This document shows, piece after piece, positions 17,004-34,092 of a stretch of 64,000 nucleotides of DNA. The DNA is from Emticicia sp. C21 (lineage in GTDB: Bacteria > Bacteroidota > Bacteroidia > Cytophagales > Spirosomataceae). The notes beneath the pieces are model-generated. The model was not told the DNA's origin. It made no database searches and saw only the letters and a list, made by a program, of their open reading frames with translations. The position numbers were made by a program, and so were the translations under genes. How positions within the stretch are numbered: position 1 is the stretch's first letter; each line of letters begins with the position of its first letter. Where the stretch lies: NCBI RefSeq assembly GCF_003418935.1, contig NZ_QVMT01000009.1, positions 62,001 through 126,000 of the forward strand, given 5' to 3'.

Positions 17004-19247
17004 TTACTGAATAACTATTTTTCCGGAATTGATAATTTCGCCACTTCCTATTTTATAAAAATAAACCCCTTTATCCAATTTTTTTGTGGAAATTTTCTGT
17101 TGTTCATAGAACTGCGCTTCCTCAATTAATCTTCCGTTGATATCGAACAACCTAAAAACTGTTAAGACTTTATTGTGCGTGTTAATCATAAAATAGTCTG
17201 AAGCTGGATTCGGATAAACCTTAATTAATTGAGAATTACCCGGCTCGTTCACCAGAATTATCTTTTTCACGTCTATTTTAGCTGCGCCTTCTACCTTACC
17301 ATTGCCACACACATTTCTTACTTCCAATACAGAATAAGTTGTTGTTGCCAGCGGTTTTACAATTAAATCTAATTCATTTTTTGTTGCTCTATGAACTGAT
17401 GAGTCAGAAAGTCTGAAGTCAAATGGAGCTAACCCTGTAAATTTCAAATGGAGAATTCCCGCCGACCCTTCATTGATTTGCGGTGTTTCGGTTGAAATGG
17501 TAACTGATGGCTTTATCTGAACCGCAAAGCTGTTGGTGGTCATTTCATTCGTTTTATTATCAACAATAAGTCTAATTTTATAATTATTGCCAGCTTTAAT
17601 ATCTTCTGAAAAACCCACAGTTATGGGCGATGTTTTTCCCTCACCAATAATTTTACTTGTAGTGAAAGACCCATTTTCATCTGATAATTGCACCTTAAAT
17701 ACAACATCTGAAACATCTTCGTAGGTGGTATAATGCACCTCTCCTTGTGTTCCAATACATTTGGTGGTGGAATCAATATAGAGTGTCAAAGGCCCTAAAT
17801 GTGGTGAGACTTCAATAGGATTATTTTTGATATTTACGTTATCGAAACTAAATGCCCGCATGCCTAAGGAATTGGTAAAATGAGTACCCTCATAAAAAGA
17901 GAGTGGTGAAGTATTACCATAAGAAGAGGGTAAATAAGAAACAAATGAGCCTTTGGCTATCGTATTGAGGTAAATCTTATTTCCAACCCCACTTCCTGAA
18001 CTGACTAAGCCACTTTTACCATCAATATAGATAAAGTCTTTCATTCGCCAGACATGATTGTTGATAGTTGTATCTTTTGGATATTTCATCTGCATATTCT
18101 CATCGAATTCTAATACCAATTGATTGTTTTCCCAATAGGTTTTTTTTAAATCAGGGGAATAAATCTCCGCTGATTCTTTGATTCCATAAACCTCCTTCCC
18201 GAGTATTCTGGATAATTCAAAGGCTGTTTGCTGATAGCCTTCTGTATGGTAATGTAAGCCATCGTAACCTTTCGTGCCAACCGTACTGATATTGGTAATG
18301 ATTGAAGATACATTTTCAGAATTTCGCTGAAACTCTCTTAAAAAACCGGCTTTGGTGTTGTGGGTATTCAGTATATTCGTCTGGAAATTGTATATCTTTT
18401 TTATATGAGGAATATCTGTTTTCAGGTAAGTGAGGAGCTTGGTAAACTGATGCGGATAGGTTTCAGATAAACCGTAAAACGTTGCATCGCTCTCACCATG
18501 TCTGAAAATCAAGTATTTTATCTGATCCTTTATTCCGCTTGCGTTTACTTGTGTTAATAGCTTCCCATAATCAGTGCGAACATCTGTAGGGTTAGAAGCG
18601 TTGCGGTTATTCAAGGTAGCAATATCAGCACCACCGACTGCTCCTACTACCACTCCAATAGGATATTTATGCTTCTCATAAAGCATTCTTTCTAATTCTA
18701 AAGGAAGCAGACCTGTCCCAGGCCATTGTGAGGTTTCAAAGGGTACCAGCCATTCACTTTCCTTATTATCAAAATTATACATTACAAAATAGCGGAGGTA
18801 AACGCTTCTTAATGGTCGGTATTCATTAATACCGCTATAGCCAAGCGCATTAGATTGGCCGTAAAACAAATAAATATCACCAGCTACTACCCTATCAGCC
18901 TTTTTTACTTCATTATCATTAAAGTACACTTTTACATAATAATTATGCTCACCAGCCTTGATTTTAGGAGTAAAACTGATTTGGGTTTGACCAGTAAGAT
19001 TAATTTCGCTTTCTGTATACAAGCTTTCTTCCTGCCATATTTTTAAAGTCAATTTGCCTCTTAGAGCAGTATTCACTGTTCCTGTAATAGGAATCACCGC
19101 CTCATCTTTTTCATCCCTTTGAAAAATCTGATTATGAGTTGGGAATTTCTGGAATTCAACCTGGGAAAAGCAATGAAATGTGGATAATAGAGACAAAATA
19201 AGCACAAGCATACTTTGTCTACCAAAGTAGAAATTTTGATTTTTCAT
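17004..19247 (-). CDS. Secreted SGNH/sialate O-acetylesterase-type esterase with T9SS type A sorting domain
   Basis: 747 residues. It shares the N-terminal and esterase domains of the adjacent paralogue, with FYGQSNALGYSG, FRHGESDATFYG and GYDGLHYHTEGYQQ. It differs after the esterase domain, having two beta-sandwich-like regions and then a classical Por secretion tail. That tail contains KVYPNPASDYFMI, LFDINGRLIEE and GVYFYKIGSGE. It should be exported by Sec and then the type IX system. The two genes are 117 bases apart in the same orientation and are products of duplication. A -7-like element (TATATTTG, minus strand, 19268-19275) precedes it. Confidence 0.85.
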   Translation of the reverse strand: MKNQNFYFGRQSMLVLILSLLSTFHCFSQVEFQKFPTHNQIFQRDEKDEAVIPITGTVNTALRGKLTLKIWQEESLYTESEINLTGQTQISFTPKIKAGEHNYYVKVYFNDNEVKKADRVVAGDIYLFYGQSNALGYSGINEYRPLRSVYLRYFVMYNFDNKESEWLVPFETSQWPGTGLLPLELERMLYEKHKYPIGVVVGAVGGADIATLNNRNASNPTDVRTDYGKLLTQVNASGIKDQIKYLIFRHGESDATFYGLSETYPHQFTKLLTYLKTDIPHIKKIYNFQTNILNTHNTKAGFLREFQRNSENVSSIITNISTVGTKGYDGLHYHTEGYQQTAFELSRILGKEVYGIKESAEIYSPDLKKTYWENNQLVLEFDENMQMKYPKDTTINNHVWRMKDFIYIDGKSGLVSSGSGVGNKIYLNTIAKGSFVSYLPSSYGNTSPLSFYEGTHFTNSLGMRAFSFDNVNIKNNPIEVSPHLGPLTLYIDSTTKCIGTQGEVHYTTYEDVSDVVFKVQLSDENGSFTTSKIIGEGKTSPITVGFSEDIKAGNNYKIRLIVDNKTNEMTTNSFAVQIKPSVTISTETPQINEGSAGILHLKFTGLAPFDFRLSDSSVHRATKNELDLIVKPLATTTYSVLEVRNVCGNGKVEGAAKIDVKKIILVNEPGNSQLIKVYPNPASDYFMINTHNKVLTVFRLFDINGRLIEEAQFYEQQKISTKKLDKGVYFYKIGSGEIINSGKIVIQ

Positions 19248-19394
19248 AGAGTTATGTAGTCTAAAAACAAATATACCTTTTTCTAAGGAAAAAGTACAGT
19301 TCTTTTTAAGACTAACGATTTATTAATAATGATAATACGCTATGAAATGGGAATTGTTTCCGAAAATTGATTTTAAGGTTGATTTTCTTATATG

Positions 19395-20132
19395 CTATAA
19401 TAGTTCATACTTACCTTCAGCATTGATTTTCACAGTAGGTAGCTGTTTGTTTTTCTCGAAAGATTCGTACACGGGTTTTAAGTTTGACCAGAACGACAGT
19501 AAGTCGGGATTATCCTCATAATGGGATTTTAGTTTTGAATAGGCTTTACTATTCATGTGTGATGGAAATATATGTACCTGAATTATACCTCCTGCATTTT
19601 TTGCTTTAGCTGCTAATAGATATAATTCTTCAATATTATCGTCTCCCAAGGGAATGCATCCAATAGAGACACAATCGCCATGGATATAAATATCATTGCC
19701 TGGATTCTTTTTGTCAGCAAAAACCAAATCTGATTTATTCGGATAATTTATTTTAAAAGAAAGATGATACGAGCTCTGTGGATTGAAATTACTTACCTGA
19801 TAAACACCTTCCGGAATCTGCAAGTCTCCCGATTTTCTCTTTGGGCCTAAGGTGCCCGAGAATGTACAGAAATCGTAAGTTTTAATTAAAGTAAAAATTT
19901 TTTGATTCTTGTTTTTAGCCCATACTTCCAATTTTTGCTCTTTTTTTAAAGCACGCAGAAACAGGTCGAATTTTGAATTATAAATATCATTGGAACTTAA
20001 TAGTATGTCAACTTCTTTTCCCTTAGAATGATAAGCTTTGGCAACTCTTGGAAACTCTAATTGTTTCTTAAAAAAATCTGGTTCAGAAATAAAAGGTAAC
20101 ATGCTTAGGATAGTTAGCAATAGCGATTTCAT
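19395..20132 (-). CDS. YafK-type L,D-transpeptidase family protein
   Basis: The 245-residue exported protein has the YkuD-type catalytic motif IYIHGDCVSIGCIPLGDD, including the nucleophilic Cys after SIG. Upstream are YDFCTFSGTLGPKRKSGDLQIPEGVY, which match the YafK/ErfK branch. Family members cut or form L,D linkages in peptidoglycan or attach and release proteins from it. The N-terminus is hydrophobic, consistent with export. It lies 10 bases downstream of the DUF5686 gene and is the last gene of that operon. Confidence 0.88.
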   Translation of the reverse strand: MKSLLLTILSMLPFISEPDFFKKQLEFPRVAKAYHSKGKEVDILLSSNDIYNSKFDLFLRALKKEQKLEVWAKNKNQKIFTLIKTYDFCTFSGTLGPKRKSGDLQIPEGVYQVSNFNPQSSYHLSFKINYPNKSDLVFADKKNPGNDIYIHGDCVSIGCIPLGDDNIEELYLLAAKAKNAGGIIQVHIFPSHMNSKAYSKLKSHYEDNPDLLSFWSNLKPVYESFEKNKQLPTVKINAEGKYELL

Positions 20133-20142
20133 ATAGTGTTTA

Positions 20143-22761
20143 TTACATAGTTACACCCAGTTTTACACCCCACCTTTGGTACTTTCCATTCTCATAACTC
20201 ATAACAGCTTCTAGACGGATTGCTTTCAGAATGCCGTCTACTCCATAGCCAATCTCTACATAATTCTTTAAGGTAGGCGAATTAAGATAATTTACAAATA
20301 TATCTTCTTTTAAGCCCCAGATTCTAACCAGCGGAACCTGAGTTAAAAGCAATTTCTTAAACTCATTAATTACATGTCCCTGTAAATAACGTCCTTTGGT
20401 GCTAAATCTGTAAGGATTCAGATAAGTTATATTTTCTTCTCCCTGAACAGGAACACGGGTTTCCAATAAACGATATCGTGCGAATAACCCTGTCTGCAGC
20501 GCATTCAGGTAGTTATTATTGATATGCTTTAAATCCATCAGATATACTTTCCTGTCATTCAAAAAGTCTCCTGCTTCAATCGTATAATCTAATTTACCCA
20601 ATTGGCCAAGACTGATATTTTGTTTGATATTAAGACTTAAGTAGTCAAAATCTGTATCAATCATGCCTTTTTTATAGGTAAGGGTAATTGCCGGAGCTTT
20701 TCCCATCAAAATCTTTCGTATGCCATTCCGTATAGTAACCTTAGAAGATGGAGTCCATCTTACCTGCCACTGCCAGATAAGTGCTTTATGTTTTGGGAAA
20801 GCGCCATCACCTAGTTCAATACTTGGCGGATTATTGACAGAGAAGCCATTTTTTGGATAGTCTTTTATGACATAAATCTTGCTCAGGTTTTCTAAGGGAG
20901 ACCTTTTAGCCAATTCAATATTTGTCGATAAAGATAATCTCGGGTCTCTTTCGAAAGTATAACCGAGAGTGAGATATTTTTTATCGTAAATTTTCAGGAA
21001 GTTCTGCTCATTGAGAAGCGTCGTCACCGAGTTCATCCATTCAAAAATAAAACTGTTTGGGTCAAACTGCGTGATGTATTTACCTACTCCAACCGCTAGT
21101 TTAGAAGGCCCTTTGTCGAATTCAAAACCTAGTCTTCCTCTTAAGCCTTTTTCTTCAAAAGCATATCTAATATTGCCATAAACATTGTATTTAAAGGGTA
21201 CTCTTGGACTGAAAAGTGTATGATTTTTATATCCTAGACCCAAGTCTGCCACTATGCCTTCTACAGAATTATAGTTTAAGCCGACTAATGGCATATAAGG
21301 TGGCTCGAAATGCAGGTATTTGCCATTTTTGAGTTTAAAATCATAGTTCATAATAAAATATTGCCACGATTTGCGAATGGAGTCTTTCTTGAGACTGTCT
21401 CTTTTTAAAACACGGGCAACTTTTATGCTATCTCCAAATTTATAACTCTTCTTTTCTTCGGTTGTTAATGGAATATTCCGAACTGAACTCCAGAAAGTTG
21501 AATCTCTGGCACTAGCTTGTGGGTCAATTTCAATTACTTCGCTACTGAGAATACCTAAATCCTGATTTTTTTCTTTAGCACGTTCCCTTTCCTCTTTCTC
21601 AAAATCCTTCATTATTTTCTTTATATTCTTTATCGAAAACTCTTTCTGGTCTTTCAGCAATTCTTCAGTTTTTGAGTTTTTTAAAGATTTTTTAGAAAGT
21701 GCATCCTGAAATTTACCCTCCTTGGTTTCATCTATAAGTTTTATTTCTTCAACAAAAGCCGGATTAGTTTTAATGGTTGAATAATTAGCATTTACCTGAG
21801 CTTTTATCAGGAAATCAAATCCAAAAAGTTTCCCTGAAAAATCAAGCCGCTGATTGATGGGCAACCAGACTTTTTCTATAGGGCCATAATACTGGCTTAG
21901 TTTGAGATTCAGTCCATTATCAATGGTTTCTACATCGACGCTATGGATATTCCAATAATCATCAATGATATGAATTGTGCCCTGCCATACACCATCTCCA
22001 TAAGATTTCGGGATAATTTTAATTTTATTGACAATTAATCCTCTATCTTCAAAGAATCCTTCATATTCAAATCTGTAATATTTAAAAGCCAAAGGAGACA
22101 ATGGGGAAACCCGATTAGTGCCGGGGTCGTAGAAGTCAAAAAGATAAAAACCGTCAGACATCGAAATGCCATCAAAAGTACTCTTCTGTCCAAAAACCTT
22201 GGTGTATTTTGAATTAGGCTGTTCAAAGCTAATTTCCATTACCGATTCTGACAGAAAAGGGACACCCTCTTTAATGTTCTGCTTATTAAGATCCTTTCGT
22301 AAAACGAGGGGAATTTTATTGAGTAGGACTGAATTTTTGACATACGCTTTCGCCTGATAGCTAATAATCTGCTTTTGGTGAATCTTGCTTTTTGCAATGG
22401 CTTTCCGCATAATGGTGTAAGCGGGATCCTCTTCTTTAGAACTTATTTTTACCTCTTTCAGCGTGACGGTCTGCTCTTCTAATCTGATATTCAATTCGAT
22501 AAATTCCTGACTGATTGTTACACGTTTAGTCAAAGTTTTATAGCCCAAGAACTGGAAATTCACATCATATATACCAGGCTTCAGATTCATCAGATAAGCT
22601 CCTTCGGCATTTGCCATCGTTCCGGAGTTTTGTCCTTTTACGATAACAGAAGTAAAAGGCAATCTTTCGCCTTTTGTATTGGTTATAATCCCTTTTATAC
22701 CGCCTGCGTGAATTTCAGTGTAGAAAAAGAAGAAAAGATAAATAAGTGTTAGTCTGAACAT
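20143..22761 (-). CDS. DUF5686 outer-membrane protein with N-terminal carboxypeptidase-like regulatory domain
   Basis: The 872-residue exported protein begins with a signal peptide. A carboxypeptidase-D-regulatory-like beta domain follows (GGIKGIITNTKGERLPF, GTMANAEGAYLMNLKPG). The rest is the DUF5686 region, rich in alternating aromatic beta strands and ending in VMSYENGKYQRWGVKLGVTM, which looks like a C-terminal beta-barrel strand. This combination is common in Bacteroidota and is thought to sit in the outer membrane; its role is not established. A charged coiled-coil-like insert lies near residues 345-400. The gene is between an esterase gene (38-base gap) and the L,D-transpeptidase gene. 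Confidence 0.85.
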   Translation of the reverse strand: MFRLTLIYLFFFFYTEIHAGGIKGIITNTKGERLPFTSVIVKGQNSGTMANAEGAYLMNLKPGIYDVNFQFLGYKTLTKRVTISQEFIELNIRLEEQTVTLKEVKISSKEEDPAYTIMRKAIAKSKIHQKQIISYQAKAYVKNSVLLNKIPLVLRKDLNKQNIKEGVPFLSESVMEISFEQPNSKYTKVFGQKSTFDGISMSDGFYLFDFYDPGTNRVSPLSPLAFKYYRFEYEGFFEDRGLIVNKIKIIPKSYGDGVWQGTIHIIDDYWNIHSVDVETIDNGLNLKLSQYYGPIEKVWLPINQRLDFSGKLFGFDFLIKAQVNANYSTIKTNPAFVEEIKLIDETKEGKFQDALSKKSLKNSKTEELLKDQKEFSIKNIKKIMKDFEKEERERAKEKNQDLGILSSEVIEIDPQASARDSTFWSSVRNIPLTTEEKKSYKFGDSIKVARVLKRDSLKKDSIRKSWQYFIMNYDFKLKNGKYLHFEPPYMPLVGLNYNSVEGIVADLGLGYKNHTLFSPRVPFKYNVYGNIRYAFEEKGLRGRLGFEFDKGPSKLAVGVGKYITQFDPNSFIFEWMNSVTTLLNEQNFLKIYDKKYLTLGYTFERDPRLSLSTNIELAKRSPLENLSKIYVIKDYPKNGFSVNNPPSIELGDGAFPKHKALIWQWQVRWTPSSKVTIRNGIRKILMGKAPAITLTYKKGMIDTDFDYLSLNIKQNISLGQLGKLDYTIEAGDFLNDRKVYLMDLKHINNNYLNALQTGLFARYRLLETRVPVQGEENITYLNPYRFSTKGRYLQGHVINEFKKLLLTQVPLVRIWGLKEDIFVNYLNSPTLKNYVEIGYGVDGILKAIRLEAVMSYENGKYQRWGVKLGVTM

Positions 22762-22799
22762 AAATGATTTAAAAGTGAATTAACGCATGCCATGAGGAT

Positions 22800-23684
22800 T
22801 TATTTCCCGACCAACCATTTCAGGAAAACAGGCATGGCTTCGCTCCATGTTTTCTGGTTGTGCTCCCCGTCTTTTACCTCATAATACACTATATCAACGG
22901 CTTTTTTATATCCATGGTTTTCTAATTCTGTAATTAAGTCAAGCGTATCTTCAATTGAATCTATAATTCCGTTATTGTTACGGTCATCTTTTTCGTCATT
23001 AGTACCACATTCGAACCAGAATTTTTGTCCCCTATGATAGGTGCCATTTTTGACAATGTTGTGCATAATTCTATCTGAATCGTCATTGTAGCCTTCTTCG
23101 TATGCTTTTTTTCGCCACCAGAAAGATCCACTGAAAACACCTGCTTTTGAGAATTTGTCAGGGTTATTCCAGACAATATCCATAGCCGAAAGCCCACCTA
23201 ATGAAAAACCGCAGAAGAAATTATCTGCTTTGTCTAACGATACAGCATACTTACTCCTGATATATGGTAGAAATTCTTTAATAATAAAGCTATTATAATT
23301 ATCAGCTAAATCCCCTCTGTTTTTATAGTCGGCCATTCCTGCTGTTCCATACTCCCTTATACGGTTTTCGTTAGTATGAATAGCCACTAAAACAAAAGGC
23401 TCTATTTCGGAGTTTTGATAAAGATTCTGGATTACCTGCTCCATATTTAGTGCAGATAAATCCTGCCCATCATTCATCAATAACAGGCTGCTCAGAGAAG
23501 CTTGAATTATGTAGTCGGGTGGTAAGATTACGTCATAAATAACATCTCTATTTAGGAATTCTGAATGGATTTTAAGTTCTTTCTTAACGGAAATCTTTCG
23601 CACTTGTGAATAGGTTTTAATTGGTAAAAAGACTGATAAAAAAGCTATTAGTCTGATTGACTGAACAAAATTTTTGAAAATCAT
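22800..23684 (-). CDS. Secreted alpha/beta-hydrolase esterase (esterase D/feruloyl-esterase-like)
   Basis: This 294-residue protein has a signal peptide ending KTYSQ. Its hydrolase core has LLLMNDGQDL (oxyanion-side strand), the nucleophile elbow FFCGFSLGGLSAMD and a C-terminal DGEHNQKTW with the likely catalytic His. An Asp-rich loop, DEKDDRNNNGIIDSIED, looks like a calcium-binding dockerin/EF-type loop inserted in the domain. The substrate cannot be told from sequence. It is the first gene of an operon with the DUF5686 and L,D-transpeptidase genes. A TATTTTTG -7 box on the minus strand (23737-23744) may be its promoter. Confidence 0.82.
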   Translation of the reverse strand: MIFKNFVQSIRLIAFLSVFLPIKTYSQVRKISVKKELKIHSEFLNRDVIYDVILPPDYIIQASLSSLLLMNDGQDLSALNMEQVIQNLYQNSEIEPFVLVAIHTNENRIREYGTAGMADYKNRGDLADNYNSFIIKEFLPYIRSKYAVSLDKADNFFCGFSLGGLSAMDIVWNNPDKFSKAGVFSGSFWWRKKAYEEGYNDDSDRIMHNIVKNGTYHRGQKFWFECGTNDEKDDRNNNGIIDSIEDTLDLITELENHGYKKAVDIVYYEVKDGEHNQKTWSEAMPVFLKWLVGK

Positions 23685-23977
23685 TTGTATGATTGATTAA
23701 AATCGACTAATATTTCAGTTCAATGTTTTATTCTGACAAAAATACAAATTCAATACTCGAAAACACCAAATCAACACAAAACAATATTTTATATTTTCAC
23801 ATAAACTTTTTACAAAATTTTATATTTACACTAAAGCTCAAAGCAATTAACAATCAGAATTTTATTTTGCAAAACATTTTTTCATTAATAGATTATCTAC
23901 GATTTTTGCATTAAAATATTTTCATCAACCAAATAAACTGCTCTAAAGCTACGAGCCTTTTAAGCATTCTAAGCTGT

Positions 23978-24697
23978 ATGGACGAAAAACATATAAAATT
24001 CTTTTCTCATTTTTTAGGTCGCGACATTGACTTATTGGTAAGTGGGCATTGGGGTTATCCTGTTCTTATGTTTCCGACTTCAATGGGAAACTATCTACAA
24101 AACCGAGATTTCGGGCTCAATAACTCTATTGCTAATCTGGTAAACGAAGGCAAAATAAAACTATATAATGTTGACAGTATAGACTTTCAGAGTTTTTATG
24201 CACAAGGCTTATCGCCTAACGTGAAGATTTTCAATTATAACTTATATACCAGGTTTATCCGCGAAGAACTTATTCCTTCTATTCAAAGAGAATGTAGCGT
24301 ACATAGGATTGCTGTAGCAGGCTGTAGTTTTGGTGGGTATCACTGTACTAATTTCGCCCTGAAATATCCAGATGTAGTTGATTACTGCTTCAGTATGAGC
24401 GGAGCTTTTGATATAAAGAGCTTTATGAAAGGCTATTTTGACGATAATGTGTATTTCAATAATCCAATTGATTATATGCAGAATCAGGATGGTTGGAAGT
24501 ACAATCACATGAAAATAGTATTGGGTACATCGGATTGGGATATTTGCAAAGATGATAATATCAATATGTCGCGAATTTTAGCAGCCAGAAGCGTTAATCA
24601 TTGGTATGATGAGAAAAAATGGGCGTCTCATGACTGGCCTTTATGGAGAATGATGTTCCCTGAATATATCGGCAAGATGTTAGCCGGACAACTATAA
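23978..24697 (+). CDS. Cytosolic alpha/beta-hydrolase (esterase family), first gene of the amidoligase cluster
   Basis: 239 residues with no signal peptide, unlike the divergent esterase at 22800. The nucleophile elbow is VAGCSFGGYH with Ser at about 117. A catalytic Asp is likely in GTSDWDIC, and the His in WASHDWPLWR at about 221. It belongs to the esterase-D-like group often annotated only as 'esterase family protein'. It heads a run of five same-strand genes with two ATP-grasp proteins, a GCS2 ligase and an amidotransferase. In that setting it could hydrolyse or transfer an ester or peptide product of the ligases; this is inference from context. Confidence 0.82.
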   Translation: MDEKHIKFFSHFLGRDIDLLVSGHWGYPVLMFPTSMGNYLQNRDFGLNNSIANLVNEGKIKLYNVDSIDFQSFYAQGLSPNVKIFNYNLYTRFIREELIPSIQRECSVHRIAVAGCSFGGYHCTNFALKYPDVVDYCFSMSGAFDIKSFMKGYFDDNVYFNNPIDYMQNQDGWKYNHMKIVLGTSDWDICKDDNINMSRILAARSVNHWYDEKKWASHDWPLWRMMFPEYIGKMLAGQL

Positions 24698-24792
24698 TAA
24701 AGTGACTAATCAGGCACTGAAAGGTTAGATAATGAATTGATTAAACTTACATTTAATAAAAAATAAAGCAATTATTTAATTAAGACTTGTTT

Positions 24793-25899
24793 ATGAAAAA
24801 AATAGGAATTCTTTTTGGCATGGAAGACACTTTTCCGTGGGCATTTATTGAAGAAGTAAATAAAACCGCTCCTGCCGGAATCATTGCTGAACCTGTATCT
24901 ATTGCTAAGGTAGAGCAAGGTGTCCCAACCGATTATGCAGTAATTATTGATAGAATTTCGCAAGACGTACCTTTTTACAGAGCTTATCTGAAAAATGCAG
25001 CGCTTTGTGGCACAGCAGTTATTAATAACCCATTCTGGTGGAGTGCTGACGAAAAGTTTTTCAATAACTGTCTGGCGGTGCAATTGGGCGTTCCAGTACC
25101 TAAAACAGTACTTTTACCTTCAAAAGAAAGACCAACAGATACAACAGATAAATCATTCAGAAACCTGAAATTTCCGATGGATTGGGAATATATGTTTGGC
25201 CAGATTGGTTTTCCGGCATATATGAAACCTCATGCAGGTGGTGGCTGGAAAAGCGTATACAAAGTTTATGACCCTAACGACCTTTGGCAAAAACATGAAG
25301 AAACAGGCCAATTAGTGATGTTGTTGCAAGAAGAAATTGAGTTTACTGATTATTATCGTTGTTATTGCCTAAATGGTAAATATATACATATTATGCCATA
25401 TGAGCCTCGCAACCCACATCATCTACGTTATGCAACTCAACCTAAAACACAGGGTGAAGAGCATAAAAAACTGATGGCAACTATTACAGATTATGTATTA
25501 AAATTAAATAAAGCCTTAGGGTATGATTTCAATACTGTAGAATTTGCCGTTCGCAATGGAATCCCTTATGCTATTGATTTCTGTAACCCTGCGCCAGATG
25601 CTGATGTAAATTCGGTAGGACAACAAAACTTTGAATGGATTGTAGAGAATGCAGCAAAAATGGCTATTGAAAGAGCAATTAAGCAAAAAGATGGCCAGAA
25701 TAACTGTACATGGGGTACATTCGTAGGTTCGGCAGTAGGAAATATTTCTGCTCCAACACCTCAGGCTCCGGCAGCTGAGAAAAAACCTGCTCTTGCAAAA
25801 AAGGCAATAGCTGAGGCAACACCGAAAGCGGCTCCTGCTAAAAAAGCGCCTGCAGCCAAAAAAGAAGAAGTTCCCAAAACAGCAGTTAGGAAAAAATAA
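24793..25899 (+). CDS. ATP-grasp ligase with Lys/Ala/Pro-rich C-terminal tail
   Basis: About 368 residues. I start at the ATG at 24793; an in-frame TTG lies two codons before. The N-terminal pre-ATP-grasp part (IGILFGMEDTFPWAF) is followed by ATP-grasp motifs. These are the glycine-rich loop AYMKPHAGGGWKSVYK, QEEIEFTDYYRCYCLNGKYIHI, and the metal-binding end FNTVEFAVRNGIPYAIDFCN. Such enzymes couple a carboxylate to an amine with ATP through an acyl phosphate. The last ~49 residues (from about 320) are low-complexity, basic and alanine/proline-rich, with repeated AKKA/APAKK units like histone H1 tails. That tail is not needed for catalysis in the family and is unusual here. A hairpin (25912-25922/25931-25941) follows the stop. 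Confidence 0.85.
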   Translation: MKKIGILFGMEDTFPWAFIEEVNKTAPAGIIAEPVSIAKVEQGVPTDYAVIIDRISQDVPFYRAYLKNAALCGTAVINNPFWWSADEKFFNNCLAVQLGVPVPKTVLLPSKERPTDTTDKSFRNLKFPMDWEYMFGQIGFPAYMKPHAGGGWKSVYKVYDPNDLWQKHEETGQLVMLLQEEIEFTDYYRCYCLNGKYIHIMPYEPRNPHHLRYATQPKTQGEEHKKLMATITDYVLKLNKALGYDFNTVEFAVRNGIPYAIDFCNPAPDADVNSVGQQNFEWIVENAAKMAIERAIKQKDGQNNCTWGTFVGSAVGNISAPTPQAPAAEKKPALAKKAIAEATPKAAPAKKAPAAKKEEVPKTAVRKK

Positions 25900-25984
25900 G
25901 CTATCGACCTTGGTTGGCAATGAACCTCTCCATTGCCAACCACACTAAACTGTTCCACTGTTAACCCCCTGAACTAAGAAAATT

Positions 25985-27082
25985 ATGTCACAATTCACAT
26001 TAGGTATTGAGGAAGAATTTCAGACTATTGACCCAAAAACGCGTGAGCTTCGCTCACATATGTCAAAATTAGTTGAGGGTGGCCAGGTTATTTTACAGGA
26101 AAGAATTAAACAGGAAATGCATCAGGCGGTAGTTGAAATGATTTCGAGTGTTTGCGAGAATATTCAACAGGCCAGAGAAGAAGTGACTTATCTGAGGAAA
26201 ATGCTGTTTGATTTGGCTGCCAAGCAGAATCTTCATATAGCCGCAGCAGGCACTCATCCATTTTCAGACTGGCAGAACCAATTGATCACTCCTAATGAAA
26301 GATATGAGAAGTTGATTGATGATATGCGCGATGTGGCCCGCGGAAATCTGATTTTTGGTTTACACGTGCACGTAGGTATTCCAAATCGGGAAGAGGGTAT
26401 GCAGATATTGAACACAGCTAGGTATTTTTTGCCCCATATCTATGCACTTTCAACAAATTCCCCTTTCTGGTGCGGGCGTAATACCGGTTTTAAATCTTAT
26501 CGTTCAAAAGTATTTGATAAATTTCCTAGAACTGGTATTCCTGATTTTTTTTCAAGTGTAGCAGAATACGACAATTATATTAATCTTTTAGTGAAAACTA
26601 ACTGTATTGATAATGGGAAGAAAATCTGGTGGGATATCCGTTTACACCCATTCTACCCTACTGTTGAGTTCAGGATTTGCGATATTCCTATGCGCGTGGA
26701 TGAAACGATTTGTCTCGCGGCTCTGATGCAGGCAATTATTGCCAAAATCCATAAGTTGCACCAGCAGAATCTAAGTTTCCGTCCTTATCATAGAATGTTG
26801 ATTAGTGAAAACAAGTGGCGCGCAGCAAGATATGGTATTCAAGGAAATCTGATTGATTTTGGTAAAGAAATTGAAGTACCTTATTCACATCTGGCAGAAG
26901 AATTAATAGAATTCGTGGATGATGTACTGGACGAATTAGGAAGCCGTAAAGAGGTAGAATACATTCATGAAATATTAAGAATGGGCAGTGGCGCAGACAG
27001 ACAATTAAAAGTATTTGAAGAAACTAATAGTCTGAAATCTGTAGTAGATTATATAGTATCTGAGACCAAAGTCGGTCTGTAA
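25985..27082 (+). CDS. GCS2-family carboxylate-amine ligase (YbdK-like)
   Basis: The 365-residue protein belongs to the glutamate-cysteine-ligase-like COG2170 group. Signatures are FTLGIEEEFQTIDPKTREL at the start, HVHVGIPNREEGM and SPFWCGRNTGFKSYR in the centre, and TVEFRICDIPMRVDET for metal and nucleotide binding. YbdK-type enzymes have weak gamma-glutamyl-cysteine ligase activity in vitro, and the true substrates are mostly unknown. The neighbouring ATP-grasp gene could suggest glutathione synthesis. The extra ligase, amidotransferase and hydrolase genes make a different glutamyl-type product more likely. Confidence 0.88.
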   Translation: MSQFTLGIEEEFQTIDPKTRELRSHMSKLVEGGQVILQERIKQEMHQAVVEMISSVCENIQQAREEVTYLRKMLFDLAAKQNLHIAAAGTHPFSDWQNQLITPNERYEKLIDDMRDVARGNLIFGLHVHVGIPNREEGMQILNTARYFLPHIYALSTNSPFWCGRNTGFKSYRSKVFDKFPRTGIPDFFSSVAEYDNYINLLVKTNCIDNGKKIWWDIRLHPFYPTVEFRICDIPMRVDETICLAALMQAIIAKIHKLHQQNLSFRPYHRMLISENKWRAARYGIQGNLIDFGKEIEVPYSHLAEELIEFVDDVLDELGSRKEVEYIHEILRMGSGADRQLKVFEETNSLKSVVDYIVSETKVGL

Positions 27083-27125
27083 CAAGGGAACGAAATAGTG
27101 CTAGAATACTGTTATCCCTTTTTAG

Positions 27126-27168
27126 ACAAGTAAATCCTGTAAGCGAGATGCTTGCAGGATTTACTTGT
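27126..27168. terminator. Long hairpin between the GCS2 and amidotransferase genes
   Basis: A 19-bp stem with one wobble (27126-27144 paired with 27150-27168) closes a 5-base loop. The following T-run is short (TGTTT), so it may be a weak terminator, an attenuator or an mRNA-stability element. Confidence 0.6.
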
Positions 27169-27271
27169 TTAATGAATCACTACATCAACTAATCCGCAAT
27201 TTTTTGTTAAATTTGTATTAATTTCTTACTAATATAAGCCTTGTTGAAAAATAACAAGCCTGTTGTGTTTT

Positions 27272-28084
27272 ATGAATATTGCAATTTTAGACCTATACGA
27301 TGGCAGACCCAATGAGGGAATGCGTTGTATAAAGATGTTATGCGACCAGTTTTTATCGCAGGAAGGGATTGGTGGTGGCTATGATATTTTTGATGTTCGT
27401 CAAAAAAATGAAATCCCTGATATTAATGAATATCAGATATTTATTTCTACCGGAGGCCCAGGCAGTCCATTACCTGAGGGACATGTTTGGGAGAAGAAAT
27501 TTAATGATTTTATAGACTCGATTTTTGAATACAATCAACAAAATGAGGTAAAGAAATATCTATTTCTGATTTGCCATTCTTTCCAGATTGCAAGTAATCA
27601 TTTAGGATTTGGCGAAGTTTGTAAAAGAAGATCAACTTCTTTTGGCGTGATGCCCATTCACCGCACAGAAGACGGTGAAAGCGAACCATTATTCGATAAA
27701 TTACCAGAGCTTTTCTTTGCGGTTGACTCAAGAGATTATCAGTTGATTCAGCCAAACTGGAAAAAAATCAATGCATTTGGGGCAAAAATATTGTGTTTAG
27801 AAAAAGAACGTCCTTATGTGCCTTTGGAACGTGCGGTAATGGCAATAAGATTCTCCAACGAAGTATTTGGCACACAGTTTCATCCGGAAGCCGATTCAGA
27901 GGGGATGATGCATTATTTTAAACAACCTGAAAAAATGCTGGCGGTTATCAAAGAGTATGGTTCGGATAAATATGAAGAAATGATTGACCGTTTAGATGAT
28001 CCTGACAAGATTATGCTTACCGAATCCGTCATTATTCCAACATTCTTAAGAAATGCTGCTGAAAATATATTAGAATTAGCATAA
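27272..28084 (+). CDS. Class I glutamine-amidotransferase-like protein
   Basis: About 270 residues, from the ATG at 27272 (a TTG three codons upstream is also in frame). The GATase-1 fold is shown by MNIAILDLYDG, the FISTGGPGSP loop, the nucleophile region FLICHSFQ with Cys at about 101, and GTQFHPEADSEGM with the catalytic His. The usual nucleophile elbow is GxCxG; here both glycines are replaced (I-C-H-S-F), though Cys and His remain. The protein may hydrolyse gamma-glutamyl bonds or supply ammonia to a ligase. It is fourth in the cluster, after a hairpin-containing 189-base gap, and its own terminator follows at 28097-28124. Confidence 0.83.
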   Translation: MNIAILDLYDGRPNEGMRCIKMLCDQFLSQEGIGGGYDIFDVRQKNEIPDINEYQIFISTGGPGSPLPEGHVWEKKFNDFIDSIFEYNQQNEVKKYLFLICHSFQIASNHLGFGEVCKRRSTSFGVMPIHRTEDGESEPLFDKLPELFFAVDSRDYQLIQPNWKKINAFGAKILCLEKERPYVPLERAVMAIRFSNEVFGTQFHPEADSEGMMHYFKQPEKMLAVIKEYGSDKYEEMIDRLDDPDKIMLTESVIIPTFLRNAAENILELA

Positions 28085-28096
28085 ATCATTTGAGAG

Positions 28097-28127
28097 AGAG
28101 GTTGAAAATGCGTTTTCAACCTCTTTT
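28097..28127 (+). terminator. Terminator after the amidotransferase-like gene
   Basis: AGAGGTTGAAAA (28097-28108) pairs perfectly with 28113-28124 around a TGCG loop, followed by TTT. Confidence 0.7.
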
Positions 28128-28194
28128 CTGATTAGTTTATTTGTGCTTTCTATCCACAACCTTTATATTCACTTCATTAATAATCCCATCATTT

Positions 28195-29391
28195 ATGATT
28201 CCTGAAATCCGTCATGAATTCAATAAAAGTTTTTCAACTGAAAAATATCAGGCTCTCTTAGCCGAAATTGAAAAAGATTTCCCATCTCAATTAGATTTTC
28301 GAGTGGCAGAAACTCCGGTATTCGTTCCCCAATCGCTCAAAATCAAGATTCTGCAAGCTTGTAATGATATTATTGATACGCTCCTAAAAGACGACTTTAA
28401 AAGCAAGACTGATAGAGCCATTCCAATCAATCAGAACGTGCCCAATGAGGATTCACACCCGAATTTTTTAGCAATAGATTTTGCAGTTTGCCTGGATGAA
28501 AAAGGAGAATTAAGCCCTCAATTGATTGAACTACAAGGTTTCCCATCCTTATTTGGCTACCAATGGTATATCGGACAGAAGTACAAAAAATTCTTTTTTA
28601 ACCCTAAGAACTTTAGCCAATATTTTAATCGCCTGAATTTGGCGAGTTACGTGGAGTTCATGAAAAAAGTTTTCTTAGGTGGTGAAAAGGCAGAGAACGT
28701 TATTCTATTAGAGATTTATCCTGAAAAACAAAAGACTCGCCTGGATTTTGAGATTACCAAACAATTGTGGGGTATTGAGCCTGTTTGCTTAACCAAAATA
28801 AAAAAAGAAGGAAGAAAGCTATATTATGAAAAAGATGGTAAAAAAATTGAAATAAAGCGTATTTATAACCGTCTGATTTTTGATGATATACTGCAAAATT
28901 TCCCTGATTTAGAAACAGAATTTAAGTTAACTGACGATGTAGACGTAAAATGGGTAACACACCCAAACTGGTTTTTCAGAATCAGCAAGTTTACTTTGCC
29001 TCTACTCAATAGTCCGTTTGTGCCTAAAAGTGAGTATTTGTCTGAATTAAAAGAATATCCTGCAGACTTAGAAAATTATGTTTTGAAACCATTATTTTCG
29101 TTTGCTGGAAGTGGCGTAAAACTGAATTTCAGCAAAGAAGATTTAGATGCCATTGAAGATAAAGAAAACTTCTTAATTCAAAGAAAAGTAAAATATGAAC
29201 CGATTATTGAAGACCCTGAAGGCAATCTGATAAAAACTGAAATCAGAATGTTATTTGCCTGGGAAGATTCAACGCCACGCCCTACTCTGGTTACCAATCT
29301 TGCCAGATTAAGCCGTGGAGAAATGATTGGTGTAAATTTCAATAAGAATTTTGATTGGGTTGGTGGTAGTTGTGCCTTTTTTGAAGATTAA
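28195..29391 (+). CDS. Divergent ATP-grasp-like protein, last gene of the amidoligase cluster
   Basis: About 398 residues from the ATG at 28195. I prefer this to a TTG 18 codons upstream, because the upstream stretch is hydrophobic and overlaps the intergenic region. ATP-grasp features are in the C-terminal half: NYVLKPLFSFAGSGVKL (phosphate/nucleotide loop), FLIQRKVKYEPI, and KTEIRMLFAWED followed by SRGEMIGVNFNKNFDWVGG. A central IYNRLIFDDIL stretch resembles circularly permuted or glutathionylspermidine-synthase-like members. I do not recognise a characterised homologue. It probably forms a second amide bond in the same pathway as the other cluster genes. A strong terminator follows. Confidence 0.65.
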   Translation: MIPEIRHEFNKSFSTEKYQALLAEIEKDFPSQLDFRVAETPVFVPQSLKIKILQACNDIIDTLLKDDFKSKTDRAIPINQNVPNEDSHPNFLAIDFAVCLDEKGELSPQLIELQGFPSLFGYQWYIGQKYKKFFFNPKNFSQYFNRLNLASYVEFMKKVFLGGEKAENVILLEIYPEKQKTRLDFEITKQLWGIEPVCLTKIKKEGRKLYYEKDGKKIEIKRIYNRLIFDDILQNFPDLETEFKLTDDVDVKWVTHPNWFFRISKFTLPLLNSPFVPKSEYLSELKEYPADLENYVLKPLFSFAGSGVKLNFSKEDLDAIEDKENFLIQRKVKYEPIIEDPEGNLIKTEIRMLFAWEDSTPRPTLVTNLARLSRGEMIGVNFNKNFDWVGGSCAFFED

Positions 29392-29421
29392 TAGAGAATA
29401 GTTTTAATTTAAATATATTTC

Positions 29422-29459
29422 ATGCCGATAAATGATGATGCATTTATCGGCATTTTTTT
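29422..29459 (+). terminator. Terminator of the amidoligase cluster
   Basis: ATGCCGATAAATG (29422-29434) pairs perfectly with 29441-29453 around a 6-base loop and is followed by a run of T. Confidence 0.88.
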
Positions 29460-29542
29460 GTAAGAAATTTATCAAGCTTTACAATTTTATGGATTTTATT
29501 GATTAGTTTGGAATTCTATTCAATCAAGAATTCCTATAACAC

Positions 29543-30910
29543 ATGAAATCAATTCGACCTTATTTAACTTTATTACTCCTTTTTACTAGTACTGGCATCT
29601 ATGCTCAAACCTTTTCAGTCAGTGAAAACAAGCGGTTTATTCTAAAAGAAGGTAAACCTTTCTTTTGGTTAGCTGATACGGCCTGGGAGCTATTCCATCG
29701 ACTTGACCGTGAGGATGCCGATTATTATCTAAGAAAACGCGCTTCACAGGCATACACGGTTATTCAAGCGGTGGCACTTGCAGAATTTGATGGTTTAAAT
29801 GAGCCAAATCCTTATGGAGAAAAACCATTAATTAATAATGACCCAACTAAACCAAATGAAGCTTATTTTAAGCATGTGGATTATATCATTGACAAAGCAG
29901 CCGATTATGGCTTAACGATTGGTTTCTTGCCAACCTGGGGGGATAAACTGAATAAATCAACCTGGGGAAAAGGCCCGGAAGTGTTTAACGTAGATAATGC
30001 CAAGACTTATGGAAAATGGCTGGCTACTAGATATAAAAACAAAAAAAATATCATATGGATATTAGGTGGTGACAGACAACCCCGTGCTAATACCAACGAT
30101 GTAGAAGTCTGGAGAGCAATGGCTGCAGGGATTGTTGAGGGTGCTGGTGGCAACGATAAAGCGCTGATAACCTATCACCCACAACCCAATAAAGAAGGTT
30201 CAAGTGAATGGTTTCATAGTGATGATTGGTTTGATTTTAATATGTTTCAGAACGGACATTGCAGAGATATGCCCATTTATGATAACATCAAAGGTTCTTA
30301 TGATAGAGCCGTTGTGAAACCCGTAATAGATGGAGAGCCGTTGTATGAAGACCATCCTGTTTGCTTCAATGTGCACGATTTAGGGACATCTAATGCTTAT
30401 GATGTACGTAAATACGCTTATCTCGACCTTTTTGCAGGAGCTTTCGGACATACCTACGGTTGCCATGACATCTGGCAGATGTATTCTCCTAATCGAGAGG
30501 CTGTTAATGGTCCTCATATTTACTGGCAACAGGCTATGGAATTACCAGGGGCCAAACAAATGCAACACGCCAGAAGACTAGTTGAATCTCGTCCTTTTTT
30601 GGATAGAATGCCTGACCAGTCTTTAATAGTTGAAAATAATCAGGCTCCTAGTGAACGAATTCAGGCCACAAGAGGGAAAGATTATGCCTTTATCTATTCT
30701 GCAGCTGGAAAGTCATTTACTGTTAATTTGGGCAAAATATCAGGTACGCAACTGAATGCTTACTGGTTTGACCCAAGAAATGGTAAGGTACAAGATCTGG
30801 CTAAAGTTGAGAATAAAGGAACTCGAAAATTCACTCCTCCGCGTTCTGGATATGGGCAAGATTGGGTTTTAGTTTTGGATGATGATTCTAAGAATTTTTT
30901 GAAGCCGTAA
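29543..30910 (+). CDS. GH140-type glycoside hydrolase (apiosidase-like, DUF4038/DUF5060)
   Basis: 455 residues with a signal peptide ending GIYAQ. The DUF4038 barrel has FFWLADTAWELFHRLDRED early, IIWILGGDRQPR in the middle and VIDGEPLYEDHP, where active-site acidic residues of GH140 lie. A small C-terminal beta domain follows (YAFIYSAAGKSFTVNLG, YWFDPRNGKVQ), matching the DUF5060-type putative collagen-binding fold. Characterised GH140 members release apiose chains from rhamnogalacturonan II; that exact activity is not proven here. It would complement the pectin/rhamnose genes at 7-12 kb. The gene is alone, after the cluster terminator. Confidence 0.83.
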   Translation: MKSIRPYLTLLLLFTSTGIYAQTFSVSENKRFILKEGKPFFWLADTAWELFHRLDREDADYYLRKRASQAYTVIQAVALAEFDGLNEPNPYGEKPLINNDPTKPNEAYFKHVDYIIDKAADYGLTIGFLPTWGDKLNKSTWGKGPEVFNVDNAKTYGKWLATRYKNKKNIIWILGGDRQPRANTNDVEVWRAMAAGIVEGAGGNDKALITYHPQPNKEGSSEWFHSDDWFDFNMFQNGHCRDMPIYDNIKGSYDRAVVKPVIDGEPLYEDHPVCFNVHDLGTSNAYDVRKYAYLDLFAGAFGHTYGCHDIWQMYSPNREAVNGPHIYWQQAMELPGAKQMQHARRLVESRPFLDRMPDQSLIVENNQAPSERIQATRGKDYAFIYSAAGKSFTVNLGKISGTQLNAYWFDPRNGKVQDLAKVENKGTRKFTPPRSGYGQDWVLVLDDDSKNFLKP

Positions 30911-30964
30911 TTTATTTCTATTCCTAATTTTCAGAATTTGGCTACTATTTTTTACGGGCTCATC

Positions 30965-31677
30965 CTAGAAATCTCTATACTCAATACTAGAACCTCCGAT
31001 AATAATTAAAGTCCAGCTCTGGGTAGAAGAAGTTAGTTTTAATGAATAAGAAAAGTTTTCATTATCTATCTCCAATAAGTCTATTGGAATATTGGTGCTG
31101 AGAATAATGGAATTAGAAGAAGCAGGAGTATTAAAAGTAAAAATACTTGTAGCCCCATTAAAATTATCTAATGGTGCGCGAATAATCTCCCCGGTTATTG
31201 ATACTGAATTAGTATTACTGTTATTAAACAAAAACTTAATGCCACTTAGTTTACTTTTATGAGGAAAAAAAGTGGAGCATAAAGCGCCCTGTTTGTGCTG
31301 GGCTCTAAAAATATAACATACTGATCGCCATAATAAGTAAAATCTGATCCATATGCTGTAGATGCTCTATCTGAATTAATATCGTAACTTAATTTGAAAG
31401 CCGAAGGGTGGATACTAAAGTAACCCGTTACATATCCTGTAACTAAAAACCCATCATTGTTTGCATAAACTGGTCTCGCTATAAAAAGGTTTCCTGTAGC
31501 AAGTCCATTGATTCTAACTGAGTTACTTTCTGTTACACCTGATACCTTTACGTTCCCTTTAATATCTTGAATATTATCACCATTAGGATCAATAGTAACT
31601 GATTTGGGTTGTGGGACTTGTGCAATACACTTAATACTTAAAAAGATAAATACAAGAATAATAGGTGTGTTCTTCAT
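30965..31677 (-). pseudogene. Secreted Bacteroidota hypothetical protein split by a one-base frameshift
   Basis: The first frame (31677 to 31246) encodes 143 residues with a signal peptide ending KCIAQ and a beta-rich body, ending early after LYAPLFFLIKVN. The next frame continues downstream with no good start and reads FPHKSKLSGIKFLF, then a beta-rich C-terminus ending SIEYRDF at 30965. The join falls in a run of seven A on the plus strand (31265-31271; seven T on the coding strand). One more base there would give a continuous protein of about 237 residues with YAPLFFPHKSKLSGIKF, a pattern seen in intact relatives. It could be a real pseudogene, phase variation in a homopolymer, or a sequencing error. 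Confidence 0.75.
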
Positions 31678-31769
31678 TTGGTTCGCTATTCTTTAATATC
31701 TCAAAATAAGTCAATAATCAAGATGTTGTAAATAGCATAATAGTGTTAGGGATGCGTTGCACAGAAGCC

Positions 31770-31802
31770 ATAAAAAAATATCCTGCGTTTCCACAGGATA
31801 TT
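31770..31802 (-). terminator. Terminator of the aconitase gene
   Basis: AATATCCTG (31777-31785) pairs with CAGGATATT (31794-31802). On the minus strand this lies just past the stop at 31828 and is followed by a run of seven T. Confidence 0.82.
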
Positions 31803-31827
31803 CTTAGTTAATACATACTACTCAGGA

Positions 31828-34092
31828 TTAAACCTCTGCAGCAATCAGATTTAAGGCAGAACCAGCTTTAAACCAGCCGATTTGACTTGTATTATACGTA
31901 TGGTTCAATTTAATTTCATCCTTTGAACCATCTGCATGATGTGCTACTAAGGTTAATGGAACTCCCTCAGCGAAGGTGGTTAGACCTAAAATATCAAAAG
32001 TATCATTTTCCTGGATTTTATCATAATCCGCTGGCTCAGCAAATGTTAGGGCCAACATACCTTGTTTTTTAAGGTTTGTTTCATGGATACGTGCAAATGA
32101 ACGAACAACAATCGCACGAACACCTAAGTGACGTGGCTCCATTGCAGCGTGCTCACGTGATGAACCTTCACCATAGTTTTCATCTCCTACTACGATAGTT
32201 CCCACGCCAGCGGCTTTATAAGCACGTTGTACAGCAGGTACTTCGCCATATTCGCCTGTTAATTGGTTTTTTACTTTGTTGGCAGTGCCATTTGCAAAGT
32301 TGATTGCACCAATCAATAAGTTATTAGAGATATTATCTAAGTGACCACGGTATTTTAACCAAGGACCAGCCATAGAAATATGATCAGTTGTACATTTACC
32401 CTTAGCTTTAATCAACAATTTTAAACCTGTCAGGTCAGTGCCTTCCCATGCTTTAAATGGATCTAACAACTGAAGACGATCAGATGTCGGGCTAACAGCA
32501 ACTTTCACACCGCTACCATCTTTTTTAGGTTTCTGATATCCGGCATCTTTTACATCATAACCTAGAGGAGGTAATTCAAGTCCTTGAGGAGGGTCTAATT
32601 TTACCTGCTCGCCTTTTTCGTTTGTCAAAGTATCTTTCGCAGGATTGAAAGTCAGACTACCCGCAATAGCAAATGCTGTTACGATTTCAGGAGAAGCTAC
32701 GAATGCATGTGTATTTGGGTTACCATCGGCACGTTTAGCAAAATTTCTATTAAATGAGGTGATGATAGAGTTTTTCTCCCCTTTCTCTGCCCCATGTCTG
32801 GCCCATTGACCAATGCATGGTCCACAAGCATTAGCTAATACTACCCCACCTATTGCATTAAACGTATTAAAGATTCCGTCTCTTTCGGCTGTATAACGAA
32901 CCAATTCAGAGCCTGGCGTAATAGTAAATTCGGATTTAGCAACCACATTTTTAGAAGCTGCTTGCGCTGCTATTGAAGCCGCACGAGTCATGTCTTCATA
33001 AGAAGAGTTTGTACATGAACCAATCAAACCTACATCCAGTTTTTCAGGCCATTTGTTTTTCTTAACTGCTTTAGCAAATTTTGAAAGAGGCCAGGCCAAA
33101 TCTGGTGTGAAAGGACCATTGATTCTTGGCTCTAATCTTGAAAGATTGATTTCGATTACCTGATCGTAATACGCTTCCGGATTATCAATGCACTCCTGAT
33201 CAGTGCGAAGTAAATCTTTAATACCATTGGCTAAAGAAGCTACTTTTGCACGGCCGGTTGCTTTCAGATAAGCAGCCATTTTGCGGTCATAACCGAATAA
33301 TGAAGTAGTAGCACCGATCTCTGCACCCATATTACAGATAGTACCTTTACCGGTTGCTGATAGGGCATCAGCACCTTTACCTATATATTCCACAATGTAA
33401 CCTGTTCCGCCTTTTACAGTTAAGCGACCAGCTACTTCAAGAATTACGTCTTTAGCAGATGCCCAGCCCTTTAATTTTCCGGTTAGTTTAACACCGATTA
33501 ATTTAGGCATTTTTAACTCCCATGCCAGACCTGACATCACGTCACAGGCGTCTGCACCACCAACACCAATCGCCACCATACCTAAACCACCCGCATTTGG
33601 TGTATGTGAGTCGGTACCAATCATCATACCACCCGGGAAAGCGTAGTTTTCAATCACTACCTGGTGAATGATACCCGCACCTGCTTTCCAGAATCCGATA
33701 CCATATTTATTAGAAACCGATGAAAGAAAATCGTAAACCTCTTTATTTTTTTCGTTAGCAACTTTTAAGTCTTCAGCAGCACCTACTTTTGCCTGAATCA
33801 AGTGGTCGCAGTGTACAGTAGAAGGAACGGCAACTTTTGGACGCCCTGTAGTCATAAATTGCAATAATGCCATCTGTGCAGTGGCATCTTGCATGGCTAC
33901 ACGGTCAGGAGCAAAATCCACGTAATCAACCCCTCTGTTATATGCTTTTGCGGGAGCTCCTTCCCATAGGTGAGAATAAAGAATTTTTTCCGCCAAAGTC
34001 AAAGGTCTACCCACAATTTTGCGAGCAGCCTCTACTCTTTCGGGCATTCGAGCGTAAACGCTCTTAATCATATCTAAATCAAAAACTGCCAT
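31828..34092 (-). CDS. Aconitate hydratase (mitochondrial-type)
   Basis: The 754-residue [4Fe-4S] enzyme interconverts citrate and isocitrate in the TCA cycle. Cluster-binding cysteines are in [12 protein letters not shown] and [15 protein letters not shown]. Other signatures are [28 protein letters not shown] and the swivel-domain loop [22 protein letters not shown]. The length and motifs fit the short mitochondrial-type family rather than AcnA or AcnB of enterobacteria. It is monocistronic and divergent from topA. A TAATTTTG -7 box on the minus strand lies at 34156-34163, without a clear -33 box. Confidence 0.95.

Follow-up and report, generated by a model that had tools for sequence, protein, structure and literature searches.

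A widely conserved amide-ligase gene cluster of Emticicia sp. C21 and its variants in Bacteroidota

Gene clusters that combine ATP-grasp enzymes, COOH-NH2 ligases and hydrolases were reportedly predicted as amidoligase neighbourhoods by Iyer and co-workers in 2009, and the systems in question are said to have Alpha-E, transglutaminase and NTN peptidase partners. A set of five genes, here named A to E, which resembles these systems in that ATP-grasp and COOH-NH2 ligase genes are clustered with genes for hydrolases, was analyzed in Emticicia sp. C21 (assembly GCF_003418935.1, contig NZ_QVMT01000009.1, positions 62,001 to 126,000). All positions below refer to this stretch of 64,000 nucleotides, the window. 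Linked ATP-grasp and COOH-NH2 ligases often carry out successive ligations, according to one paper, which cites earlier work on this point (PMC4431377).

The source genome has a size of 6.64 Mb in 33 contigs, with a completeness of 99.94%, and was placed in the Cytophagales by its nearest named records. A, B, C, D and E are consecutive on the forward strand without any intervening gene, and the gaps between them are 95 (A-B), 85 (B-C), 189 (C-D) and 110 bases (D-E). The genes are located as given in a first-pass annotation of the window, with ATG codons as the better choice of start for B, D and E; this annotation had described a hydrolase, an ATP-grasp ligase, a GCS2 ligase, an amidotransferase-like protein and a second ATP-grasp-like protein in a row on one strand. 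Its family calls were right as well: A, C and D scored above the cut-offs of PF00756, GCS2 and PF00117, and B and E were recognized as ATP-grasp proteins through their predicted folds. The five genes belong to a real and widely conserved amide-ligase gene set, and the general idea of the first-pass annotation stands.

Gene order and co-occurrence in Bacteroidota

Gene E was present in 38 of 58 genomes, comprising the source genome and its relatives, and 33 regions were fetched from these 38 genomes. The order A-B-C-D-E on one strand, in some cases with extra genes between, was observed in 25 of the 33 fetched relatives. A scan of a genome collection with the alignment of B gave at least 544 relatives; among the best 80 of these, referred to as the named loci, the same order was found in 65, again with extra genes in some. 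By title all 80 are Bacteroidota, ranging from Flavobacteriia to Cytophagia, and several of the remaining 15 loci are cut by contig ends. The two samples share some species and Chryseobacterium is over-represented. Another way of picking open reading frames gave 61 of 80 and 23 of 33; these numbers are lower because the picking loses overlapping genes, and they were not the counts used. The five-gene arrangement is not a product of chance.

Co-occurrence was studied in one evenly drawn set of 395 Bacteroidota genomes, with C counted at an E-value of 1e-20. Second pieces and weak second matches, a 24-residue match of E (G104) and weak matches of B at 22-24 bits (G271, G109 and G409) were dropped, by which the count of E fell from 115 to 114 and that of B from 137 to 134. 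B was thus found in 134, C in 129 and E in 114 genomes, and all three occurred together in 105. Genes within 6 kb of each other on one strand were regarded as close. By this measure B, C and E were all close in 59 of the 105 genomes, partly linked in 16, and none were close in 30; in G100, where the assembly is a single contig, they are more than 250 kb apart. Even so, 29 of these 30 non-adjacent genomes contain A with a score of at least 150 bits, compared to 3 of 60 control genomes without B, C and E (Fisher p 4e-19). In the control the absence of B, C and E was checked, 3 of 3 positive controls were recovered, and many of the genomes gave weak matches of other esterases, below 45 bits. A search for D in the 30 non-adjacent genomes gave no match, with 3 of 3 positive controls recovered. 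If synteny alone had retained the genes, independent loss of members would be expected, whereas A was present in 29 of 30. The presence of A and the absence of D therefore identify A, B, C and E as one unit, a coupled core, to which D was added in some lineages. The genes beside E in six non-adjacent loci (an aminotransferase, two amidohydrolases, a CNNM transporter, a cyclase and NamZ) had no common theme.

Variants of the cluster were found as well. Among the genomes that have B and lack E, 16 have D, and in 15 of these 16 a gene of about 450-500 codons, named X, is flanked by B and D in tandem; the sixteenth genome has A-B-X and D on separate contigs. This B-X-D arrangement is called type II (loci L182, L184, L190-L202 and L203/L204). 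C is absent from type II genomes or located elsewhere. Within the limits set by contig ends, 12 of the 16 type II genomes have A ahead of B, 9 have a further PF00756-type esterase, Y, behind D, and in 3 a third ATP-grasp gene and an isoaspartyl peptidase gene follow. Two of the 16 X proteins were scanned against PF14403 (CP_ATPgrasp_2, circularly permuted ATP-grasp type 2; cut-off 32), and scored 37.3 bits (L184) and 24.3 bits (L182); PF14403 is a family that reportedly stems from the amidoligase work of Iyer and co-workers. A profile of 12 X proteins matched the structure 3n6x by sequence (5e-9), which also tops the list of fold matches of E. A variant with B, D and E and without C was observed in L108 and in four f26 genomes, with A adjoining in L174 and L175 and not in L178. 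Type II and the variants without C have in common B, D, one permuted ATP-grasp protein and mostly A; the 30 non-adjacent genomes have in common A, B, C and E.

Several points weigh against a single pathway as the explanation of these data. Each pair of B, C and E is associated at Fisher p < 1e-59, a value that overstates independence because the 395 genomes are related by descent. Most of the 30 non-adjacent genomes are draft assemblies, in which contig ends can hide linkage, and only G100 and G115 consist of a single contig; in 7 of the 30, B and C are on a shared contig, 9 to 55 kb apart and on opposite strands. E is missing from 24 of the 134 genomes with B, and 8 of these 24 also lack D. 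C was not found in the four f26 genomes with B, D and E. The link between E and X is given solely by their shared match to 3n6x, by fold for E and by sequence for X, and hhalign gave no significant similarity when their profiles were compared directly (probability 1.6%, E-value 0.031). Finally, the A orthologue of one locus (L058 in genome G029) lacks the active-site serine and histidine, and is possibly a degenerate or inactive copy. The E gene beside this altered A is, at 48% identity, more divergent than any other of its family.

The first-pass annotation had proposed a single pathway with three amide ligases and hydrolases, and had named conserved order in relatives as the observation to look for. 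The conserved order in 25 of 33 and 65 of 80 loci, and the joint occurrence of the genes where they lie apart, bear this proposal out. It had named scattered homologues without synteny as evidence to the contrary, and on this point the outcome was mixed: most of the loci studied have synteny, while in some it is lost and the genes still co-occur. Two parts did not hold. D is not a member of the core set, and C is not always in the set, being absent from A-B-D-E and absent or elsewhere in the B-X-D variant.

The encoded proteins

B (24793-25899, forward strand, start codon ATG at 24793) is a conventional ATP-grasp ligase, as judged from its predicted fold and alignment. It is 70-87% identical to 17 aligned orthologues, and lysine 145 and glycines 149-151 are conserved. 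No curated cut-off of Pfam or NCBIfam was passed by B. The score with the RimK family TIGR00768 was 28.2 bits against a cut-off of 143.4, and that with R2K clade family 2, PF18299, was 21.7 bits over residues 160-213, compared to a gathering score of 26.2. Membership of B in the R2K conflict systems was considered and rejected, since the PF18299 cut-off was missed and the gene contexts differ from those described (PMC4431377). An AlphaFold model built from an alignment of 18 sequences had a predicted local distance difference test (pLDDT) score of 76, with weak stretches. Foldseek gave 470 matches to the PDB at E-values up to 0.001, and the best 50 of these 470 are ATP-grasp ligases by title. 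They include D-Ala ligases, the graspetide ligases MdnC and PsnB, and the carrier-protein ligase ArgX, with E-values of 1e-9 to 3e-12. B is by its predicted fold a member of the ATP-grasp superfamily. It shares this fold with D-alanine ligase, RimK, the graspetide ligases and ArgX, and differs from them by its scores below the RimK and R2K_2 cut-offs, by a lysine-rich tail and by the lack of a Pfam or NCBIfam family of its own. The C-terminal tail (25723-25896, forward strand) is rich in lysine, alanine and proline, and is encoded by 58 codons.

C (25985-27082, forward strand) is a GCS2-family carboxylate-amine ligase, which scored above the curated cut-offs of PF04107 (217.6 bits versus 21), PRK13515 (558.3 versus 371) and TIGR02050 (308.9 versus 176.4). 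It is the only GCS2 match in the genome. C resembles YbdK from E. coli in belonging to the GCS2 family, in its match to the YbdK structure (PDB 1r8g, E-value 6.6e-60) and in exceeding the cut-off of the YbdK-family model TIGR02050. In contrast to E. coli YbdK, it missed the equivalog model PRK13516 (248.4 versus 425) and passed PRK13515.

No match of E (28195-29391, forward strand, start codon ATG at 28195) to Pfam or NCBIfam was observed at an E-value of 1 or better. The AlphaFold model, from an alignment of 20 sequences, had a pLDDT of 89.7, and all 27 Foldseek matches in the PDB at E-values up to 0.001 have the permuted ATP-grasp fold by title, with query-normalised template modelling scores (TM-scores) of 0.47-0.61. 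The top match was 3n6x, a putative glutathionylspermidine synthase (2.6e-14), and 8fbz (1.4e-13) and 7uk8 (2.7e-11) were also matched. The fold further matches glutathione synthetases from human, yeast and plants (E-values of 2e-10 to 1e-13), the ligase Cp1B, and YgiC and YjfC from E. coli. Alignment of E with YgiC by hhalign gave an E-value of 2.9e-5 and a probability of 74% over 84 columns, including the ATP-binding loop; YgiC is named 'peptide--spermidine ligase' in the NCBI record of strain K-12. The predicted fold, which is shared by eukaryotic glutathione synthetase, GspS and YgiC, makes E the suspected second ATP-grasp enzyme, a permuted ATP-grasp protein of the glutathione synthetase/GspS type. 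With YgiC, YjfC and glutathionylspermidine synthetase it shares the permuted fold and a similar motif in the ATP loop (ENYVLKPLFSFAGSGV / EKYVVKPIFSREGANV). It is unlike them in its identity of about 15% in the structural alignment, in having no Pfam family, and in its operon with a GCS2 protein and a second ATP-grasp protein.

The E-64 pathway, to which Cp1B belongs, is fungal, and its partner genes reportedly differ from those of the A-E set. The fold of E matches Cp1B, an ATP-grasp amide ligase from E-64 biosynthesis (9cjn), with an E-value of 8e-11. E-64 biosynthesis is described as independent of nonribosomal peptide synthetases (PMC12568646). In genome G180 (L159:5637-8237) E is fused in frame behind a sodium:solute symporter (PF00474, 125.9 bits), and long open frames are also found at E in G326 and G443.

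A (23978-24697, forward strand) is an alpha/beta-hydrolase of the esterase type with a PF00756 score of 41.7 bits, compared to a cut-off of 22, and no signal peptide was seen by eye. Ser117, Asp188 and His218 form the probable catalytic triad; in the alignment S117 and H218 are kept in 12 of 13 orthologues and D188 in all 13. A divergent esterase gene, est2 (22800-23684, reverse strand), adjoins A. Its product is enterochelin-esterase-like (PF00756, 91.5 bits) with a hydrophobic, signal-peptide-like N-terminus by eye. The first-pass annotation did not mention est2, a conserved neighbour found divergent to and adjoining A in 22 of the 33 relatives, in one of them truncated at the end of a contig, and in 44 of the 80 named loci. 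A Hymenobacter relative of est2 (L123:7514-9028) is apparently joined to a YfiT-like bacillithiol transferase domain, with an NCBIfam score of 38.2 of 160 bits and so below the cut-off.

D (27272-28084, forward strand, start codon ATG at 27272) scored 31.5 bits with PF00117 (cut-off 22.8), and the residues C101, H204 and E206 are invariant in 16 of 16 aligned orthologues. By this cut-off and the predicted Cys-His-Glu triad it is assigned to the class I glutamine amidotransferase family. Directly 3' of E a terminator-like hairpin (29422-29453, forward strand; 13 pairs and a T run, a consensus match only) has the longest stem among the terminator-like sites of 23600-29700, of which 6 were observed and 3.8 were expected by chance. 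The hairpin probably marks the end of the operon. No Rfam family reached its gathering score within 19000-32000.

Neighbouring genes and plasmid relatives

For 153 loci, open reading frames with a minimum of 100 codons were clustered, and representatives were named. A class III aminotransferase was found in 34 loci, mostly directly behind E in Cytophagales, a third ATP-grasp in 24 and an M17 aminopeptidase in 22. The third ATP-grasp lies directly before A in 22 loci, which are from Chryseobacterium and its kin by title. In Chryseobacterium loci including L091, L093 and L095 the cluster is flanked by genes that by eye resemble glgA, glgB and glgC, and also by the gene of another PF00756 esterase, whose extended N-terminus by eye resembles a glycogen-binding domain.

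A collection of plasmids contained no matches of B, D and E at the limits used, and 14 distant matches of A with 27-31% identity. Two of four fetched plasmid esterases of the A type, from Peptoclostridium and Sinorhizobium, are encoded directly behind an ATP-grasp_4 gene (L147:6788-8753 and L148:6729-8744), an order that parallels the third ATP-grasp before A in the 22 loci from Chryseobacterium and kin. The Peptoclostridium ATP-grasp protein was unconvincing as a relative of B, with an hhalign probability of 7.9%.

Proposed function and alternatives

We propose, with a probability of about one half, that the five genes represent type I of a Bacteroidota pathway for one small, amide-linked compound made without ribosomes. 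Judged from families and folds, C would activate an amino acid, probably glutamate, by forming an acyl phosphate at a carboxylate group, which is then linked to an amine. A second unit could be added by B, an ATP-grasp enzyme similar to D-Ala ligases, and E may cap the product with another amino acid or with an amine of the polyamine kind. D might supply ammonia from glutamine or remove a gamma-glutamyl group. Hydrolysis of an ester or thioester of the product, in turnover or salvage, would be the task of A, together with est2 outside the cytosol. A more specific version is tentative: an undescribed cofactor or reserve compound, small and amide-linked, may be made in many Bacteroidota through an esterase, an ATP-grasp and a permuted ATP-grasp enzyme, in two interchangeable builds, type I relying on GCS2 and E and type II on X, with the histone-like basic tail of B as a docking or acceptor site.

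Tagging of a protein or peptide is unlikely in our judgement. According to this explanation B would attach residues to a protein or form links on it in the manner of RimK or the graspetide ligases, C and E would build or extend the tag, and the lysine-rich tail of B would dock on the target or be modified itself. The presence of MdnC, PsnB and ArgX among the fold neighbours of B is in line with such a role; the fold of B is equally similar to D-Ala ligases. The tail has 58 residues here and up to 165 elsewhere, and is histone H1-like (L121, L084, L076 and others). Basic tails were scored in proteins of at least 150 residues by a content of at least 20% K+R and at least 35% A+P+T+S in the last 40 residues. 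The rule was satisfied by 67 of 124 B proteins, by not one of the 435 proteins encoded by A, C, D and E, and by 9 of the 1472 other neighbours, which counts in favour of tagging. Many B proteins have only a short tail or none, however, and just 2 of 8 B proteins from non-adjacent genomes have it by the rule. No precursor or carrier gene was found among the recurrent neighbours of at least 100 codons, a survey that a short precursor would escape because of this length limit. The tail may serve in docking of B to a polyanion or as an acceptor.

A cyanophycin-related role was considered because of neighbours in Chryseobacterium and Hymenobacter. Cyanophycinase was found in 15, isoaspartyl peptidase in 16 and cyanophycin synthetase in 8 of the 153 loci, nearly all from these two genera. 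Together with the isoaspartyl peptidase behind 3 of the 16 type II clusters, this could be explained by an adjunct of nitrogen storage, in which a cyanophycin-like or arginine/aspartate-containing compound is made or recycled. We regard this as improbable. The source genome had no match to the cyanophycin synthetase model TIGR02068 at an E-value of 1e-100, and cyanophycin synthetase was present in 21 of the 105 genomes with B, C and E, compared to 29 of 290 others (odds 2.25, p 0.015). As a general role cyanophycin was ruled out, the enrichment in the 395-genome test being only weak.

The glutathione synthetase fold of E was the reason to retain glutathione or a close thiol tripeptide as an alternative, with C as glutamate-cysteine ligase and E adding glycine. 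C being the sole GCS2 protein of the genome fits this, and so does the lack of a bacterial-type gshB: the glutathione synthase model TIGR01380 had no match in the source genome at an E-value of 0.001 (8 of 14 controls were matched, 3 of them above the cut-off; models for fused GshAB and E. coli-type GshA were not searched). None of the glutamate-cysteine ligase models matched by C was passed, however: the scores were 350.6 of 409, 310.1 of 332, 263.8 of 427, 243 of 437 and 216.4 of 395 bits, and C also fell short with TIGR02048 (58.3 versus 249.05), TIGR01436 (22 versus 463.15) and EgtA (11.8 versus 370.8). The bacillithiol gene bshC is present in the genome at 401 bits (bshA and bshB were not searched), and B, A and D would be superfluous for glutathione. 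Glutathione is very doubtful for these reasons, and it was rejected as the main explanation on the scores of C, the presence of bshC and the lack of a TIGR01380 match. The view of the first-pass annotation that ordinary glutathione synthesis does not account for the genes is probably correct.

It is highly improbable that the genes are neighbours without a common pathway, kept by chromosome inheritance: in many Cytophagales loci synteny does extend to genes for an aminotransferase, an acyl-CoA reductase, a ferredoxin and an ammonium transporter, but the five genes stay together where the flanks differ, and A, B, C and E co-occur when non-adjacent, which the 60-genome control makes hard to explain by inheritance.

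The preferred explanation remains a pathway for one small amide-linked compound. About a quarter of the Bacteroidota genomes in the sample (105 of 395) have all of B, C and E. No description of the cluster and no product in print were found among the matches listed in a literature search by title and abstract start, a scope from which subscription papers are mostly excluded. B and E, as ligases without a Pfam or NCBIfam family of their own, could be of use in enzymatic amide synthesis. The tight co-occurrence of the core means that one set of knock-outs and one comparison of metabolites could name the compound, and with the exchange of E for X, two different sets of enzymes are at hand that may carry out the same chemistry.

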